Shown here in pieces: positions 54,308 through 63,795 of a stretch of DNA of 64,000 bases. Under the pieces are notes generated by a model. The model was not told the origin of the DNA and did no database searches. It saw nothing but the letters and a program-made list of their open reading frames with translations. Each line of letters opens with the position of its first letter. The stretch's first letter is position 1. Source of the DNA: Aggregicoccus sp. 17bor-14 (GTDB lineage: Bacteria > Myxococcota > Myxococcia > Myxococcales > Myxococcaceae); the NCBI RefSeq assembly GCF_009659535.1, contig NZ_VJZZ01000001.1, positions 511,424 through 575,423 of the forward strand, given 5' to 3'. Both the position numbers and the translations under genes were made by a program.

Positions 54308-54442
54308 GCGCTGACCGAAAGGTCTTCCGGCGCACAGTGATGGCAGGCAACCGAGCGCGCGCACGATGCTTTCCATCCATCGCGCACGCCCGGTAGGCTG
54401 CGGCGGTTTCACTCCTCTCTCTCAGTGGGTCCCAAGAGCGCC

Positions 54443-57400
54443 ATGGAGCGTCGCGTCCTCATCGTCGAAAGCCAGAACGAGTTCGCCCTGAGCATGGCGA
54501 GCGTGCTGCGGAGCGCGGGCTACCAGACGGCCATGGCTCCCACGGCGGCCGATGCGCAGCGCGAGCTGGAGAAGCGGCGGCCGGACCTGGTGGTGGTGCG
54601 CGCCGAGCTGCCGGACCAGTCCGGCTTCACGCTCTGCGGCCAGATCAAGAAGGGCAAGTTCGGCCAGAACCTGCGCGTGCTGCTGCTCTCCTCGGCCACG
54701 GGCGTGGAGGGGCTGAACCAGCACCGCCAGACGCCGGCCGCGGCGGACGGCTACCTCCTCATCCCCTTCGAGATGGGCGAGCTCGCGCAGATGAGCGCGG
54801 GCATCGTGGCCCCGCCTGCGCCCGCCTCCCCCGAGCGCGACGCGCTCGAGGCCTCGATGGATGCCTCGATGGACTCGGCGCTCGCGGGCGAGGCACCGCG
54901 CGAGGCCGCCCCGCAGCCGCCCCCCATCCGCACGCAGGCAGCCGGCGGCCCCCCGCGCCTGCCGCGCCGCGAGCGCCGCAGCGCGATCAACGACGAGGAC
55001 CGCGCCTTCCTCGACCGGGCCTTCCAGTCGATCGCGGACCGCAAGGCGGAGCTGCTCGCCGAGAGCCGCCAGGTGCGCCGCACGCCCCCGCGCCGCGAGC
55101 AGATGGGCACGCCCGAGGGCAAGATCCAGATCCTGCGCGACGAGCTCAAGACGCGCGAGGCCCAGCTGGCCCGGCTCTCCGAGATCTGGAGCGTGCGCGA
55201 GCGGGAGCTGCTCTCGGTCGAGGACCGCCTCCACGAGAAGGACGTGGAGCTGCAGGGCCTGAAGATGCAGGTGGACGACCTGCTGCGCCGCTTCAACGAG
55301 GCGCAGAACACCATGCTCCTGAAGGAGCGCGAGCACGGTGCCACGGTCGACGATCTCATCCTCCAGAAGTTCGCCACCGAGAAGGACCTCATCGAGGTGG
55401 TGGCGGCCAAGGAGAAGGACATCAACGTCCTGCGCCGCGAGGCGAGCAACCGCGAGGACGAGCTCGCGCGCCGCGCCGGGGAGCTCGAGGAGCTGCGCCG
55501 CCAGCTCGAGGCGGCCGAGAAGCACACCTCGGTGCTCACGCTGGAGTTCGAGGTCAAGGAGCAGTCGCTGCAGGACGCGCTGCGCGGGCGCGAGGGCGAG
55601 GTCGCCCAGCTGACCGAGCGCGGCCAGAACCTGGAGCAGACGCTCGCGCAGACGCTGGCCGAGCGCGACGCGCGCTACGCGGAGCTGGCCGGCGAGCAGC
55701 AGGCCCTGCAGGACACCCTGGAGGCGGCGCGCGCCGAGCGCGAGCGCACCGTGCACGCGCTCGAGCAGCGCGCCCAGGGGGCCGAGGAGCACGGGCGCCA
55801 GACCGAGGAGGCGCTGCGCGAGGCACGCGCCGAGCGGGCCGCCTTCCAGGAGCGCACGGACGCGCAGGTCGCCGAGCTGGAGCAGGCGCTGGCCACGGCC
55901 ACCGGCGAGCGCGACCAGGTGCGCGCCGAGAAGGACGCGCTGGAGGAGGAGCTGACCGGCCGCCTCGCCGAGCGGGACGCGAAGGTCGCGGGGCTCGAGG
56001 CGGAGCTCTCGGAGACCATCGCCCGCGGCGAGCGCGCGGAGGCGGAGCTCAACGCCGCCATCCAGCAGCACCTCGAGCGCATCGGTGAGCTGGAGGGCGA
56101 GGTGGAGTCCGGCCGCGCCCACCTCGCCGACCGCGAGGAGGAGCTCACCGGCGAGCTGCGCGCGCTCTCCGAGGCGAAGGACACGCTCGAGCACACCCTG
56201 CGCGGCGAGCTGCAGGTGCTCTCCACCGCCAAGGACGCACTGGAGCTCGAGCTGCGCGGGCAGCTGCAGGCCCTCTCGGACGCGAAGGACGCGCTCGAGG
56301 AGGCGCTGCGCGGCGAGCTGCAGGCGCTCTCCACGGCGAAGGACACGCTCGAGGCGGAGCTGCGCGGCGAGCTCGAGGCGCTCACCGAGGCGAAGGACGC
56401 GCTGGAGCAGGACCTCAGCGGCCAGCTCGAGGCGAGCCAGCGCGCGGGCGAGGAGCTGCAGGCCCGGGTGATGTCGCTCGAGGAGACGGTGTCCGCGCGC
56501 GAGGCGAGCCTCGAGGCGCTCGAGGCCCGGCTCGCCGAGACCGAGGCGCAGCTCGCGGACACGCGCGGCAACCTCGAGGCCACGGGGCAGACGCTCGCCT
56601 CCACCGAGGCGACCCTCTCCGAGACGCAGGAGGCCCTCTCCAGCACCCGCGGCGAGCTGGAGGCCACGGCGCAGACCCTGGCCCAGACCCAGGAGAGCCT
56701 CTTCGAGACGCAGACCCAGCTCGAGCAGACCCGCGAGCAGCTGTCCGGGACGCAGGCCCAGCGCGAGGCGCTCACGGCGGAGCTCGCCGAGACGCAGGGC
56801 ACGCTCGCGCGCACGGTGCAGGAGCGCACGGACCTCGAGGCGGAGCTGCACGGGGCGCGCGAGGAGCTGGAGCGCGGCGCCGAGGCGCTGCGCGCGAGCG
56901 AGGAGGCGCGGGCCGCGCTGGACGCGGAGCTCAACGCGCAGCTCGCGCAGGTGCGCACCGAGCTCGCGGAGCTGCAGGGCCAGTACGAGGCGGAGCGCAG
57001 CGCGCACCAGCAGCTGGTCGAGGACAGCGCCGCGCAGCAGCAGGCGCTGCAGGAGCAGCTCACCCAGGCGCAGGACCAGGGCAACGACCTGGCCGAGCAG
57101 CTCTTCGCGACGAACCAGGAGCTGGGCGCGCGCGTCGCCGAGGTCACCCAGCTGGGCAGCCAGCTCGCGGCGACCGAGGATGCGCGCGCGGGGCTCGAGG
57201 AGCGGCTGCAGGCGCTGACCGCGGACTCCCAGCGGCGCGAGGAGCTGCTGCACAACGACCTGGCCAAGGCCGGCCAGGAGCTGGAGGACGCGCGCAGCCG
57301 GCTCACCGTGCTCTCGCAGGAGAAGCAGCGGCTGGGCGAGGCGCACGCGCGCGAGCTCGCGGCGCGCGCCGAGCAGCTCAAGCAGGCGGAGGCGCGCCTG

Positions 57401-58357
57401 CGCGCGCAGGCCGAGGAGGGCCGGCGCCAGACGGAGCAGCTCAACGCCCAGCTCGCGGCGCTGGCCGGCGAGCGCGACGGCGTGCGCAAGGAGCTCGCCG
57501 AGCGCGACGAGCAGCTGCGGGTGGCGGGCGTCGCCCAGGCGAAGCTGCTCAACGAGCGCGACGGGCTGGGCGCCCAGCTCCAGCAGTCGCAGGCGCGGCT
57601 GCAGGAGGCCCAGCAGGCGCAGGCCGCCGAGCGCGCGGAGGCGAAGCGCCAGGCGGACGAGCTCGCGGCGAAGCTCGCCCGCGCCGAGGCCCGCATCGTC
57701 CAGGTGACGCAGGAGGCCCAGGCGCGCGCCGCGGACGCGGACGCGAAGCTGCGCGACGCGCAGGGCCAGCTGGGTGTGCGCGCGAAGAAGATCCAGGAGC
57801 TGGAGCTCGCGGTCGAGAACGCGCACGGCGCCAAGGTGCGCGTGGAGAAGGAGTCCGCGGCGAAGCTCGCGAGCACCGAGACCCGCGCGAACGAGGCGCA
57901 GGTGAAGCTCGCGGCGGCCCAGCGCGAGCGCAAGGACCTCGAGGCCCGGCAGCACAAGGAGATCGAGGACCTGCTCGCGAAGCAGAAGGCGGAGCTCGAG
58001 CGGCGCGAGGCGATCAAGGCCCAGGAGGTGGCCCGCCTGCAGCAGTCCGTGCAGGAGAAGAGCAAGGCCCTCAAGGTGGTGGAGCTGGAGCTTGCCCGCT
58101 ACAAGGCGAAGGCCCCGGCGGCCGGCGCGGCCGCCCCCGCGGCCCGCCCGGTGGCCGGCGTGGCGCTCGCGGATGCGGCCGTCACGGCCGTGGCCGCCCC
58201 CCGCCCTGCCCCTGCGGCGCGCCCGGCGCCTGCGGCGGCCGCCCCTGCGCGCCCTGCGGCCCCGGCGCGTCCCGCGGCCGCCCCCGCGGCGAGCGCCCCC
58301 GTGCCCCCGCCGGAGGAGGCGGACTGGACGGCGCTGGTCGACGAGCTGGACAAGTAG
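54443..58357 (+). CDS. aglZ: AglZ-type gliding motility protein (pseudo-receiver plus long coiled coil)
   Basis: 1,304 residues. Residues 1-115 have a response-regulator fold that has lost its chemistry: the acidic pair is Glu9-Ser10, the phospho-Asp place is Arg53 (VVVRAELPD) and the lysine place is Ile107 (YLLIPFE). A Pro-rich linker follows. From about residue 210 to 1225 the sequence is coiled coil, including TPEGKIQILRDELKTREAQL. An Ala/Pro tail ends it. M. xanthus AglZ (about 1,395 residues, filament-forming, needed for adventurous gliding) has this layout; FrzS is similar but shorter. ATG at 54443 is used; GTG at 54425 is possible. No other motility gene is adjacent. Confidence 0.9.
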   Translation: MERRVLIVESQNEFALSMASVLRSAGYQTAMAPTAADAQRELEKRRPDLVVVRAELPDQSGFTLCGQIKKGKFGQNLRVLLLSSATGVEGLNQHRQTPAAADGYLLIPFEMGELAQMSAGIVAPPAPASPERDALEASMDASMDSALAGEAPREAAPQPPPIRTQAAGGPPRLPRRERRSAINDEDRAFLDRAFQSIADRKAELLAESRQVRRTPPRREQMGTPEGKIQILRDELKTREAQLARLSEIWSVRERELLSVEDRLHEKDVELQGLKMQVDDLLRRFNEAQNTMLLKEREHGATVDDLILQKFATEKDLIEVVAAKEKDINVLRREASNREDELARRAGELEELRRQLEAAEKHTSVLTLEFEVKEQSLQDALRGREGEVAQLTERGQNLEQTLAQTLAERDARYAELAGEQQALQDTLEAARAERERTVHALEQRAQGAEEHGRQTEEALREARAERAAFQERTDAQVAELEQALATATGERDQVRAEKDALEEELTGRLAERDAKVAGLEAELSETIARGERAEAELNAAIQQHLERIGELEGEVESGRAHLADREEELTGELRALSEAKDTLEHTLRGELQVLSTAKDALELELRGQLQALSDAKDALEEALRGELQALSTAKDTLEAELRGELEALTEAKDALEQDLSGQLEASQRAGEELQARVMSLEETVSAREASLEALEARLAETEAQLADTRGNLEATGQTLASTEATLSETQEALSSTRGELEATAQTLAQTQESLFETQTQLEQTREQLSGTQAQREALTAELAETQGTLARTVQERTDLEAELHGAREELERGAEALRASEEARAALDAELNAQLAQVRTELAELQGQYEAERSAHQQLVEDSAAQQQALQEQLTQAQDQGNDLAEQLFATNQELGARVAEVTQLGSQLAATEDARAGLEERLQALTADSQRREELLHNDLAKAGQELEDARSRLTVLSQEKQRLGEAHARELAARAEQLKQAEARLRAQAEEGRRQTEQLNAQLAALAGERDGVRKELAERDEQLRVAGVAQAKLLNERDGLGAQLQQSQARLQEAQQAQAAERAEAKRQADELAAKLARAEARIVQVTQEAQARAADADAKLRDAQGQLGVRAKKIQELELAVENAHGAKVRVEKESAAKLASTETRANEAQVKLAAAQRERKDLEARQHKEIEDLLAKQKAELERREAIKAQEVARLQQSVQEKSKALKVVELELARYKAKAPAAGAAAPAARPVAGVALADAAVTAVAAPRPAPAARPAPAAAAPARPAAPARPAAAPAASAPVPPPEEADWTALVDELDK
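56153..56422 (+). repeat. Five 54-bp tandem repeats inside aglZ
   Basis: Encodes five 18-residue units (residues 571-660 of the aglZ product) of the form ELxALSxAKDxLExxLRG. Units match at most positions but not at every base, so the array is old or under selection at protein level. Confidence 0.85.
56531..56761 (+). repeat. Eleven strict Leu/Thr heptads inside aglZ
   Basis: Residues 697-773 are eleven consecutive seven-residue units, each with Leu at position 1 and Thr at position 4 (LAETEAQ, LADTRGN, LEATGQT and so on to LSGTQAQ). Threonine at a core place is unusual. Confidence 0.85.
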
Positions 58358-59833: not shown

Positions 59834-59864
59834 GCGTTCAAACCTTTCCCAAGGACCCACCCTC

Positions 59865-60815
59865 ATGTCCTCCTCGACCTCCTCGCAGGGCGTGCGCGCC
59901 GACCAGATCTGGCTCGATGGCAAGCTGATGAAGTGGGACGAGGGGCACGTGCACGTGATGACGCACGCGCTCCACTACGGCCTGGGCGTGTTCGAGGGGA
60001 TCCGCGCCTACCGGACGCAGGACGGGCGGCTCGCGATCTTCCGGCTGAAGGAGCACATCCGCCGGCTCTTCGACTCGGCGCACATCTGCATGCTGAAGAT
60101 GCCCTTCACCGAGGCGCAGCTGGAGGAGGCCTGCCTCGAGCTGCTGCGCAAGCAGAAGGACCTCTTCGCCAACGGCGCCTACCTGCGCCCCATCGCCTTC
60201 ATGGGGGACGGGGCCATGGGCCTGGGCGCGGTGAACCCCACCCGCGTGGCGGTGACGGCGTGGGACTGGGGCGCGTACCTGGGCGACAAGGGCATCCGCG
60301 AGGGCATCCGCGCGAAGATCAGCTCCTTCACCCGCCTGCACGTGAACGTGAACATGGTGCGCGGGAAGATCACCGGCCAGTACGTGAACTCCATCATGGC
60401 CAAGCGCGAGGCGGTGCTCGCCGGCTACGACGAGGCCATCCTCCTGGACGCGAACGGCTTCGTGGCCGAGGCCTCGGGCGAGAACATCTTCCAGGTGAAC
60501 AAGAAGGGCGTGATCAAGACCCCGCCCCTCTCCTGCCCCATCCTGGACGGCATCACCCGCGACTCGGTCATCCGCATCCTCCAGGACGCGGGCCACACCG
60601 TGCAGGAGGTGACCTTCACCCGCGACGCGCTCTACGTGACGAACGAGATCTTCTTCACCGGCACGGCCGCGGAGATCACCCCGGTGCGCGAGATCGACAA
60701 CCGGCAGGTGGGCACGGGCAAGCCGGGGCCCATCACGCAGCTCGTCCAGGAGACGTACTTCCGGGCGGTGCGCGGGCAGGAACCCCGGTACGCCGAGTGG
60801 CTGACCTACGTCTAG
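59865..60815 (+). CDS. ilvE: Branched-chain amino acid aminotransferase
   Basis: Class IV PLP aminotransferase for Val, Leu and Ile, 316 residues. The blocks HALHYGLGVFEGIRAYRT, LFDSAHICMLKMPF and GAYLRPIAFMGDG are typical; the PLP lysine should be Lys168 (VRGKITGQYVNSIMAK). LDANGFVAEASGENIFQV and TGTAAEITPVREIDNRQVG finish the family pattern. AAGGA lies nine bases before the ATG at 59865. The gene is alone, 121 bp after moxR and 149 bp before the Fic-like gene, each of which has its own promoter-like sequence. Confidence 0.96.
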   Translation: MSSSTSSQGVRADQIWLDGKLMKWDEGHVHVMTHALHYGLGVFEGIRAYRTQDGRLAIFRLKEHIRRLFDSAHICMLKMPFTEAQLEEACLELLRKQKDLFANGAYLRPIAFMGDGAMGLGAVNPTRVAVTAWDWGAYLGDKGIREGIRAKISSFTRLHVNVNMVRGKITGQYVNSIMAKREAVLAGYDEAILLDANGFVAEASGENIFQVNKKGVIKTPPLSCPILDGITRDSVIRILQDAGHTVQEVTFTRDALYVTNEIFFTGTAAEITPVREIDNRQVGTGKPGPITQLVQETYFRAVRGQEPRYAEWLTYV

Positions 60816-60860: not shown

Positions 60861-60889
60861 TTGTCCTAAGCGCGCGGAATTTCTACAAT
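60861..60889 (+). promoter_or_regulatory. Promoter of the Fic-like gene
   Basis: TTGTCC (60861-60866), a 17-bp spacer and TACAAT (60884-60889): the best sigma-70-type match I found in the window. The leader of about 70 nt contains a stem CCGGGGA/TCCCCGG (60914-60920 with 60930-60936). Confidence 0.6.
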
Positions 60890-60964
60890 CACGGCGTCGT
60901 TTCCACCCGCGGTCCGGGGAAGGGGCATTTCCCCGGGGCCCGCGCGCGAAGGAGCCGTACGTCC

Positions 60965-61798
60965 GTGAAGGAACGCTACCAAGAGATCGACGAGAAGAAC
61001 GACTCCCTTCGCGAGTACCTCGACATCTACAAGTCGAAGTCGAAGGAGTTCCTCGAGCGCTTCGAGATGTCGTGGATCTACCACGACGCGGCGCTGGAGG
61101 GCGTCGTCTACACGCCGCAGGAGCTGCAGGTGGCGCTGCACCCGCAGCGCGGCGCGGCGGAAGCGTCCATGGTCCCGGTGGTGCTGGAGATCCGCAACCA
61201 CAAGGCCGTCTGCGACTACATCCGCGAGGAGGCCACGGGCGGCAAGAAGCAGGCGCAGATCACGCTGACCACGATCAAGCGCATGCACGACCTGTTCGCG
61301 GGCAACACGCCCGAGGCACAGGCGGCGCGTGCGGCGGCGGAGCGGCGCGAGCGCACCGAGAAGGAGCTGGCGAAGGAGCGCGAGAAGGGCGGCTACCGCA
61401 AGGACATGCCCCTGCACCGCACCTACTTCCACGACATCGCGCAGCCGGCGAAGATCCCCGCCCTGCTCGAGAAGCTGGTGGACTACACCGCGAGCGCGGA
61501 GTTCCGCGAGTTCCACCCGCTGAAGCAGGCGGCCACGGTGCAGCACCAGTTCCTGCAGATCTTCCCCTTCACCGAGCACAGCGGGAAGGTCGCGCGCATG
61601 TGCTCGAACCTCATCCTGCTGCGCCACGGGTACATGCCGGCGGTCATCCACTCCATCGACCGGCAGAAGTACTACGAGAGCTTCCGCGCGCCCGTGGGCG
61701 CCTTCCGCACGCTGCTGATGGACGCGATCGAGAACTCGCTCGACAACGGGCTCAAGTACTTCCGCGACCTCAACCGCCGCTACAAGGCGATCAACTAG
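60965..61798 (+). CDS. Fic-fold protein with degenerate active site
   Basis: 277 residues. Fic proteins transfer AMP from ATP to target hydroxyls using HPFxxGNGRxxR. Here that region reads FPFTEHSGKVAR (residues 200-211): Phe200 replaces the catalytic His, Ser206 replaces Asn and Lys208 replaces Arg, while Pro, Phe, Gly and the last Arg remain. The N-terminal helix carries ALEGVVYTPQEL, like the Fic inhibitory-helix region (ExG). The enzyme is therefore probably inactive as an AMP transferase, or does something else. GTG start with AAGGAG ten bases upstream; a good promoter lies at 60861-60889. nfo follows after 17 bp. Confidence 0.82.
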   Translation: MKERYQEIDEKNDSLREYLDIYKSKSKEFLERFEMSWIYHDAALEGVVYTPQELQVALHPQRGAAEASMVPVVLEIRNHKAVCDYIREEATGGKKQAQITLTTIKRMHDLFAGNTPEAQAARAAAERRERTEKELAKEREKGGYRKDMPLHRTYFHDIAQPAKIPALLEKLVDYTASAEFREFHPLKQAATVQHQFLQIFPFTEHSGKVARMCSNLILLRHGYMPAVIHSIDRQKYYESFRAPVGAFRTLLMDAIENSLDNGLKYFRDLNRRYKAIN

Positions 61799-61815: not shown

Positions 61816-62646
61816 GTGATCCTCGGAGCCCACGAGTCCATCGCCGGCGGCGTGAGCCAGGCCTTTGCCCGCGCCGAGGCCCACGGCGCGAAGAGCCTGC
61901 AGATCTTCACCAAGAACGCGCGCGGCTGGAGCGCCCCGCCCCTCGCGGACGCGGAGGCCGCGGCCTTCCGGCGCGAGGCCGCGCGCACGGGGCTCCCCTC
62001 CGTCGCCCACGGCAGCTACCTGGTGAACCTCGCCACCGAGGACGCCGGCCACCGCGAGCGCTCCCTCGCGTGCGTCACCGAGGAGCTCACCCGCTGCGAG
62101 CGCCTGGGGGTGAGCCTGCTCGTGCTGCACCCGGGCGGCCACCCGGACGAGAAGCGCGGGCTGAGGCTCATCGCCGAGGGGATCGACGAGGTCCACGCCC
62201 GCACGCCCGGCTTTCGCGCCCGCCTCTGCCTCGAGGTGACGGCCGGCCAGGGGAATTGCCTGGGCTGGCGCTTCGAGCACCTCGCGGAGATCTTGAATCA
62301 GGTGAAGGCCGAGTCCCGCGTCTCTCTGTGCCTGGACACCTGCCACCTCTACGCGGCCGGCTACGATCTGGCCACCGAGCGCGGCTATGCGCAGGTGATG
62401 GACGCGTGCGACCGGCTGGTGGGGCTCGAGCGCGTCGCCTGCTTCCACCTGAACGACTGCAAGAAGGGCCTCGGCTGCCGCGTGGACCGCCACGAGGAGA
62501 TCGGCCGGGGAGCACTCGGGCTGACGGCCTTTCGCTGCCTCGTCAACGATCCCCGCTTCCGGGACACCGTCGGGGTCCTGGAAACGCCGGTTCCGGAGCG
62601 TTATTCAGACGCTCTTCAGCTTCTCCACTCGCTGGTCCAGACGTAA
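61816..62646 (+). CDS. nfo: Endonuclease IV (AP endonuclease)
   Basis: Zinc-dependent AP endonuclease of base excision repair, 276 residues. Opens ILGAHESIAGGVSQAFARAEAHGAKSLQIFTKNARGW; later LVLHPGGH, the metal-binding CLDTCHLYAAGYDL, HLNDCKKGLGCRVDRHEEIGRG and a late ETPVPERY. GTG at 61816 is the only start fitting the family N-terminus; no ribosome binding site is seen, so it may be coupled to the Fic-like gene 17 bp upstream. A DHH phosphoesterase follows after 18 bp. Confidence 0.95.
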   Translation: MILGAHESIAGGVSQAFARAEAHGAKSLQIFTKNARGWSAPPLADAEAAAFRREAARTGLPSVAHGSYLVNLATEDAGHRERSLACVTEELTRCERLGVSLLVLHPGGHPDEKRGLRLIAEGIDEVHARTPGFRARLCLEVTAGQGNCLGWRFEHLAEILNQVKAESRVSLCLDTCHLYAAGYDLATERGYAQVMDACDRLVGLERVACFHLNDCKKGLGCRVDRHEEIGRGALGLTAFRCLVNDPRFRDTVGVLETPVPERYSDALQLLHSLVQT

Positions 62647-62664: not shown

Positions 62665-63795
62665 ATGCCTGTCTCCCCCACAGCCCCCGGCCGTAAGCCT
62701 CCGGCCCCCGTCCCCGCGCCGCTCCCGGAGGACGGATCGGAGCCCCCGCCGAGGCTCGCGCACCTGCCGGCGCGCGACAAGCTCGAGCGCCTGCTGCGGG
62801 TGGCCAAGGGTCACAAGCGCGCGCTCATCGTCACCCACGACAACCCGGACCCGGACTCCATCGCGGCCGCGGTGGCGCTGGGCCACGTGCTGGAGAGCTG
62901 CGCGGGCGTGGAGGCGGAGGTCGGCTACGGGGGCATCATCGGGCGCGCGGAGAACATCGCCTTCGTGAAGGTGCTGCGCCTGCCCGTCACGCACATCAGC
63001 CAGCTGAACTTCGACGACTACGATCTCTTCGGCCTCGTGGACACGCAGCCGCCCGTGGGCAACCACTCGCTGCCCTCGCGAATCCGCACGGACATCGTCG
63101 TGGACCACCACCCCTTGCGCGACGAGAGCCTGCTCTGCCCCTTCGCGGACGTGGGCGGCGACTTCGGCGCCACCTCGACCATGCTGGTGGAGTACCTGCG
63201 CGCGGCGCGGCAGGAGCCCTCGGTGGAGGTGGCCACCGCGCTCTTCTACGGCATCAAGGCGGACACCCGGGACCTGGGCCGCGAGACGACCCAGACGGAC
63301 GTGGACAGCTACCTGTGGCTGTTCCCGCGCTGCGACAAGCAGCTGCTGGGGCAGATCGAGCACCCGGTGCTCCCCGCGCGCTACTTCCAGCTCTACCACA
63401 CGGCCTTCGAGCGGGCGAAGGTGCACGGCACCGCGATCGTGACGAACCTCGAGGAGGTCTACTCGCCGGACATGGTCGCCGAGGTCGCCGAGCGGATGAT
63501 GTTCCTCGAGGGGATGAAGTGGAGCCTCGCGTACGGGACCTTCCGCAACCAGCTCTTCGTCTCCCTGCGCGTGAAGGACCGCCGCATGAACGCGGGCCGC
63601 CTCATCCGCGAGATCTGCGACAACAAGGGCGGCTCCTCGGGCGGCCACGGGAGCATGGCGGGTGCGCGCCTGCCGCTCTCGGGCAACGCCGCGAAGCGCA
63701 AGGCCTTCAAGCGCGAGCTCGTGGCGCAGTTCCTCGAGGCCTTCGGCGTCTCCGAGGAGCGCCCGGTGGCCCTGCTGTCCGCGCAGGACACGTGA
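62665..63795 (+). CDS. DHH/DHHA1 phosphoesterase (NrnA/RecJ-like)
   Basis: 376 residues. DHH motifs: VTHDNPDPDSIAAAVALG (first Asp pair), FGLVDTQPP, VDHHPLRDE (DHH), and DFGATSTMLVEYL. The DHHA1 domain ends with KGGSSGGHGSMAGARLPL. Such proteins degrade nanoRNA, pAp or cyclic dinucleotides; with a diguanylate cyclase in this window, c-di-GMP-related pGpG is an attractive but unproven substrate. A Pro-rich N-terminal tail of about 30 residues is extra. Ends with GTGA overlap with the next gene. Confidence 0.9.
   Translation: MPVSPTAPGRKPPAPVPAPLPEDGSEPPPRLAHLPARDKLERLLRVAKGHKRALIVTHDNPDPDSIAAAVALGHVLESCAGVEAEVGYGGIIGRAENIAFVKVLRLPVTHISQLNFDDYDLFGLVDTQPPVGNHSLPSRIRTDIVVDHHPLRDESLLCPFADVGGDFGATSTMLVEYLRAARQEPSVEVATALFYGIKADTRDLGRETTQTDVDSYLWLFPRCDKQLLGQIEHPVLPARYFQLYHTAFERAKVHGTAIVTNLEEVYSPDMVAEVAERMMFLEGMKWSLAYGTFRNQLFVSLRVKDRRMNAGRLIREICDNKGGSSGGHGSMAGARLPLSGNAAKRKAFKRELVAQFLEAFGVSEERPVALLSAQDT

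Follow-up and report, generated by a model that had tools for sequence, protein, structure and literature searches.

A FICD-like Fic-fold protein without the catalytic histidine is conserved in almost every myxobacterium

The 64,000-nucleotide stretch of Aggregicoccus sp. 17bor-14 DNA analyzed here (the window) contains an open reading frame, fic, at positions 60965 to 61798 of the forward strand, which starts with GTG and encodes a protein of 277 amino acids. The product was classed as a His-less Fic-fold protein of FICD type, putatively class II, from a PF02661 match, an AF2 model, alignment with VIA-align, and the presence of orthologues across the phylum. A Shine-Dalgarno site read from the sequence (GAAGGAG, approximately 60948 to 60954, +) is present in most aligned relatives. 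The sigma-70 promoter proposed in the initial annotation was recovered in a consensus scan as TTGTCC-17-TACAAT (60861 to 60889, +), with 9 of 12 consensus matches and 0.1 such elements expected in shuffled sequences. This sigma-70-like element is conserved across genera: a TTGTCC-17-TA[CG]AAT-like sequence is kept between diverged flanks at Hyalangium-, Archangium-, Myxococcus-, and Corallococcus-type loci. The upstream neighbor (59859 to 60815, +) encodes an ilvE-like class IV aminotransferase (PF01063), which synteny places upstream of fic in several classes. Downstream lie nfo, encoding endonuclease IV (61816 to 62646, +; TIGR00587, 266 bits) and fragmented or absent in relatives, and a gene for a DHH/DHHA1 phosphoesterase (62665 to 63795, +; PF01368 and PF02272), which by synteny is the downstream neighbor in most of the class. 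Elsewhere in the window, positions 54425 to 58357 (+) encode a protein of 1310 aa in which a receiver domain (PF00072) precedes a very long tail that is probably coiled-coil.

The 277-aa product matches PF02661 at 48.9 bits against a curated cut-off of 24 and belongs to the Fic/Doc (Fido) fold family; a match to the NCBIfam model for XopAC (20.7 bits against a cut-off of 450) reflects the shared Fic core alone, and this identity was rejected. The canonical Fic motif, HPFx[DE]GNGRxxR, contains the catalytic His of AMPylating Fic proteins, and the corresponding sequence here is FPFTEHSGKVAR. The N-terminal class II signature, (S/T)xxxE(G/N), is represented in the family by the helix position and the EG, with Ser/Thr replaced by Asp or Glu in all members scored. 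FICD/HYPE, the human class II Fic that acts as the AMPylase and deAMPylase of BiP, combines transmembrane, TPR, and Fic parts in one chain and carries the canonical motif; the myxobacterial protein, with the Fic part alone and an altered motif, is not a FICD orthologue by that definition. In FicTA systems, the antitoxin with the inhibitory motif is encoded by a separate small gene next to fic; here the inhibitory helix is in the Fic chain itself, and the neighbors found in a survey of open reading frames of at least 90 aa were ilvE, nfo, DHH, AAA, or TPR genes. One further Fic is encoded in the same genome (G000:C11:574-891, L001), with the canonical motif HPFLDGNGRIGR.

The altered catalytic loop, F200-PFTEHSGKVA-R211, is encoded at 61562 to 61597 (+) and was delineated from the sequence and a residue tally. 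Its His, first Gly, Asn, and first Arg (now Lys) are replaced, and its Pro, Phe, second Gly, and last Arg are retained, in agreement with the initial annotation, which described a Fic protein that had lost the catalytic His, Asn, and first Arg. In a profile alignment with FICD (FICD numbering from PMC4342408), F200, E204, S206, K208, and R211 are equivalent to His363, Asp367, Asn369, Arg371, and Arg374, respectively, and E45 in the N-terminal helix to Glu234. The tally compared 121 distinct family members (at least 202 bits against the family profile) with the 21 nearest canonical Fics (at most 118). Motif position 1 is Phe in 107 members, Tyr in 9, Met in 5, and His in none, versus His in all 21 canonical proteins; position 7 is Ser (115), Thr (4), or Asn (2), versus Asn in all 21; and position 9 is Lys (86), Arg (24), or another residue in the remainder, versus Arg in all 21. 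Position 12 is Arg in every member that covers it, and the loop acid, E204, is mostly acidic across the family. HPF..GNGR..R is present in 21/21 of the nearest canonical Fics, and the remaining Fics detected in family-bearing genomes are almost all canonical as well, so the motif change is specific to the His-less family. A true His elsewhere in the active site, the caveat attached to the initial annotation, was sought by alignment, and no conserved replacement was found in the loop, where H205 is His in 55/121 members. A misaligned loop that conceals a His was rejected on the same ground, the sole HPF strings (in three members) being located upstream of the loop.

The differences extend beyond the loop. 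In the inhibitory-helix motif, H40-D41-A-A-L-E45-G46 (61082 to 61102, +; tally of 121 against 21 and FICD alignment), the inhibitory Glu is retained (Glu in 111 members and Asp in 9), and the Ser/Thr site at position 41 has become acidic (Asp in 82 and Glu in 38 of the members scored, versus Ser in 20 and Thr in 1 of the canonical set). H40 is found in 120/120 members scored; most of the canonical relatives have Asn there. In Fic enzymes, the flap serves to position the target (PMC4342408, PMC8373988); here it carries a family-specific motif, R145-K-D-M-P-L-H151-R-T-Y154-F-H156-D-I (61397 to 61438, +), with the family consensus R-[KR]-[DE]-x-P-x-H-R-x-Y-x-H. Within it, R145, Y154, and H156 occur in 121/121 members and are likewise invariant in alignment A1, and H151 occurs in 116, with Tyr in the other 5. 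Ten positions are fully conserved among the weighted sequences (H40, G46, R145, Y154, H156, P201, G207, R211, R233, and Y236), and these map to the inhibitory helix, the flap, the loop, and the region after the loop. The site aligned with Asn407 of FICD, which contacts adenine (PMC4342408), is unconserved in the family. Judged from these alignments, the change amounts to a coordinated rebuild of the motif, the inhibitory helix, and the flap; the initial annotation had noted neither this coordination, with its acidic helix residue and invariant flap His and Tyr, nor the age of the change or FICD as the nearest structural relative.

A search of other genomes, as the initial annotation had recommended for this motif variant, revealed matches in 142/147 genomes of the class (115/116 of those of good quality) and in 178/195 genomes of the phylum Myxococcota (about 143/149 of those of good quality); every match with E ≤ 0.001 was counted, so a small number of low-scoring ones may belong to other Fics. 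The match in genome G062, for example, is a canonical Fic (L207). True phylum members have E values of about 1e-68 to 1e-116 against the family profile, save for a few that are fragmented or incomplete; Myxococcus xanthus, Hyalangium, Corallococcus, Archangium, Pyxidicoccus, and Anaeromyxobacter are among the carriers that have names. Among the sampled genomes outside Myxococcota, only G321 (8e-62) and G284 (9e-44, split over two contigs) have matches distinct from ordinary Fics; they represent two small separate phyla in which the family occurs in 5/5 and 1/1 genomes. Two genomes without a proper match were examined. In G129, the DHH gene runs into the end of a contig, which would fit an assembly gap. 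G062 has no DHH gene either, so that the missing fic there reflects either a gap or a deletion. A record titled Comamonas sp. KCTC 72670 (L099) contains a myxobacterial locus with 81% identity and identical gene order, and this assembly is probably misnamed or mixed.

In a quickly built tree without bootstrap, midpoint-rooted for drawing only, a branch with an SH-aLRT value of 99 separates the family (48 members) from 21 canonical relatives. The single clade suggests that the His was lost once, long ago. The altered Fic has persisted over roughly the whole history of the phylum, with one copy in almost every myxobacterium. Purifying selection on it is strong: dN/dS for pairs of close relatives ranges from 0.00 to 0.25, is mostly near 0.1, and in the majority of pairs falls below the values for ilvE and the DHH gene. 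A pseudogene or an assembly error is ruled out by this range and by the 121 distinct members; together with the phylum-wide distribution and the conserved promoter, it upholds the earlier view that the gene is not decaying.

Fic proteins are usually patchy accessory genes, such as toxins and effectors. This one lacks the canonical chemistry, is present almost universally across an entire phylum, and is more constrained than the adjacent metabolic gene in most comparisons. Since the altered version has been kept so long, it probably does some other, apparently undescribed, job. The family is a natural experiment on the capabilities left to the Fic fold after the loss of AMPylation, and it is found in organisms with routine genetics, among them Myxococcus xanthus. 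Literature searches, with subscription journals mostly outside their scope, found no paper on a phylum-wide, constrained His-less Fic family. A Fic without the His is not new in kind: the published Doc clade D2 has Gln in place of the catalytic His (PMC4454073). Those proteins differ in being small and Doc-type, in keeping the other motif residues (Qx[FY]x[DE][GV]NKR), and in number, 45 sequences having been described (PMC4454073).

The AF2 model (mean pLDDT 90.9, pTM 0.89; input of 56 window and locus sequences) was compared with known structures. Foldseek and VIA-align both ranked human FICD first (Z 28.6, rmsd 2.4 over 242 residues, 24% identity), followed by BT_2513 (Z 24.8) and AvrB (Z about 11.8). 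Middling Z values mean little for helical folds; the FICD value is far above that range and is backed by sequence, with the family profile matching FICD at E 2e-32. The likeness to FICD covers the whole Fic-domain fold, the N-terminal inhibitory helix with its Glu, the last motif Arg, and the loop Pro and Gly. Unlike FICD, the myxobacterial protein lacks the catalytic His, the Asn, and (in most members) the first Arg, has an acidic residue at the inhibitory Ser/Thr site, carries a distinct and slightly longer flap with invariant His and Tyr, and is not fused to a TPR domain. BT_2513 (3cuc) is the best single-sequence PDB match (E 4.5e-12) and, like bacterial class II Fic proteins, shares the architecture of the family, but it retains the canonical HPF..GNGR..R. 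AvrB, a rhamnosyltransferase on a Fic fold without the Fic motif (PMC10866546, PMC2686095), also lacks the Fic His and retains the loop Pro and Gly (PMC2686095), but it is a plant-targeted effector with an inserted domain and no recognizable sequence kinship to the family. BepC from Bartonella likewise combines a Fic fold with an altered motif, and no enzymatic activity was found for it (PMC8401265); it differs in binding a triphosphate nucleotide, in having Lys for the loop acid, and in being a secreted host effector of narrow distribution.

AMPylation by FICD requires His363 and the loop Asp (PMC4342408), and deAMPylation by EfFIC requires the His, the loop acid, and the conserved Glu (PMC6408439). 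By sequence, the myxobacterial protein is intact, constrained, and widely kept, and lacks residues needed for these reactions in the characterized relatives. The initial annotation had put forward a regulator, a binding protein, or a phosphocholine- or phosphate-transferase variant as candidate roles. We favor, with reservations, a used but non-AMPylating pocket in an ancient FICD-like Fic-fold protein that acts as a ligand-gated binder or as an enzyme with another chemistry. On this reading, the protein is of the class II (FICD-like) type and apparently vertically inherited, with one orthologue per genome; its AMPylation and deAMPylation machinery would have been lost a single time, at or ahead of the origin of Myxococcota, and its pocket rebuilt. 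The flap would still bind a target-protein peptide by beta-augmentation, as in other Fic proteins. P201, G207, and R211 of the loop, together with E45, H40, D/E41, H151, Y154, and H156, may form a pocket for an anionic or phosphorylated ligand; it is the alignment to FICD that would place H40, H151, Y154, and H156 in a shared pocket. With such a pocket, the protein could be a binder gated by its ligand or could catalyze something other than AMP transfer.

The enzymatic half of this explanation can be stated separately, as a Fic fold reused for another transfer or hydrolysis with H156, H151, Y154, H40, D/E41, and E45 as base or metal ligands, and in that form it is a tentative possibility. The invariance of Y154 and H156, the presence of H40 in every member scored, and an acidic position 41 throughout would suit it, and AvrB, chains of which are among the structural matches, provides a precedent (PMC10866546, PMC2686095). 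However, the flap His could serve target or nucleobase binding only, and AvrB is a weaker structural match than FICD. An enzyme that defines the phylum, in which the His was exchanged for an active site built from H40, D/E41, E45, H151, Y154, H156, and R211 to carry out a reaction needed by nearly all Myxococcota, is similarly conceivable without being probable. We consider it rather unlikely that the protein is a pure scaffold, a pseudoenzyme acting through protein-protein contact with its pocket unused. BepC shows that a Fic domain can act through contact alone (PMC8401265), and both the loss of the catalytic His, Asn, and first Arg and the unconserved equivalent of the adenine-contacting Asn407 (PMC4342408) agree with such a role; yet conservation is strictest in the loop, flap, and inhibitory helix, where divergence would be expected if the pocket were unused. 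This concentration of invariant sites argues for a used pocket over a bare scaffold, and a pocket refashioned for another ligand accounts for the pattern better than one that is dead and drifting. The invariant residues could have a folding role, and the conserved Glu and last Arg might be retained merely as a structural salt bridge. Continued AMPylation or deAMPylation by means of another base appears very improbable; weak AMP transfer of that sort would still be compatible with the sequence. The class II Glu, the last motif Arg, and the mostly acidic loop residue are retained, but a FICD His363 mutant keeps only about 4-6% activity (PMC4342408), mutation of the His abolishes deAMPylation by EfFIC (PMC6408439), and further losses affect the Asn, the adenine contact, and, often, the first Arg.

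Least probable is a partnership with nfo in DNA repair. The gap between fic and nfo in the window is 17 nt and no terminator was found between them on the + strand, making it likely that the two genes are cotranscribed here, as the initial annotation had stated. That arrangement is not a general feature of fic. In Hyalangium and in many Myxococcus and Corallococcus genomes, fic is intact but the adjacent nfo is missing or only a C-terminal fragment of it is left, and nfo was undetected beside fic at most loci examined outside the class; a general tie was rejected, and nfo partnership as a general role is already largely refuted. At L004, L006, L087, L088, L103, L106, and other loci, nfo is reduced or gone between an intact fic and the DHH gene, which points to loss of endonuclease IV in several lineages. 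The usual order in the class is ilvE, often an AAA ATPase gene, fic, often nfo, and the DHH/DHHA1 phosphoesterase gene; fic is retained whichever neighbors are lost, and ilvE and the DHH gene are its most regular neighbors. A tie to the AAA gene located between ilvE and fic in many relatives was also rejected, a search of the window's own genome, run without a positive control, having given no match to that gene. Outside the class, a patatin-like gene, ilvE, or an AAA gene precedes fic in several families, and in several families a TPR-repeat gene lies downstream (L074, L076, L080, L086, L237, and L242). The AAA ATPase, uncharacterized and exemplified by L087:4542-5876 and its relatives, is encoded directly 5' of fic in many Myxococcota of more than one class and weakly matches the anti-phage ATPase IteA.
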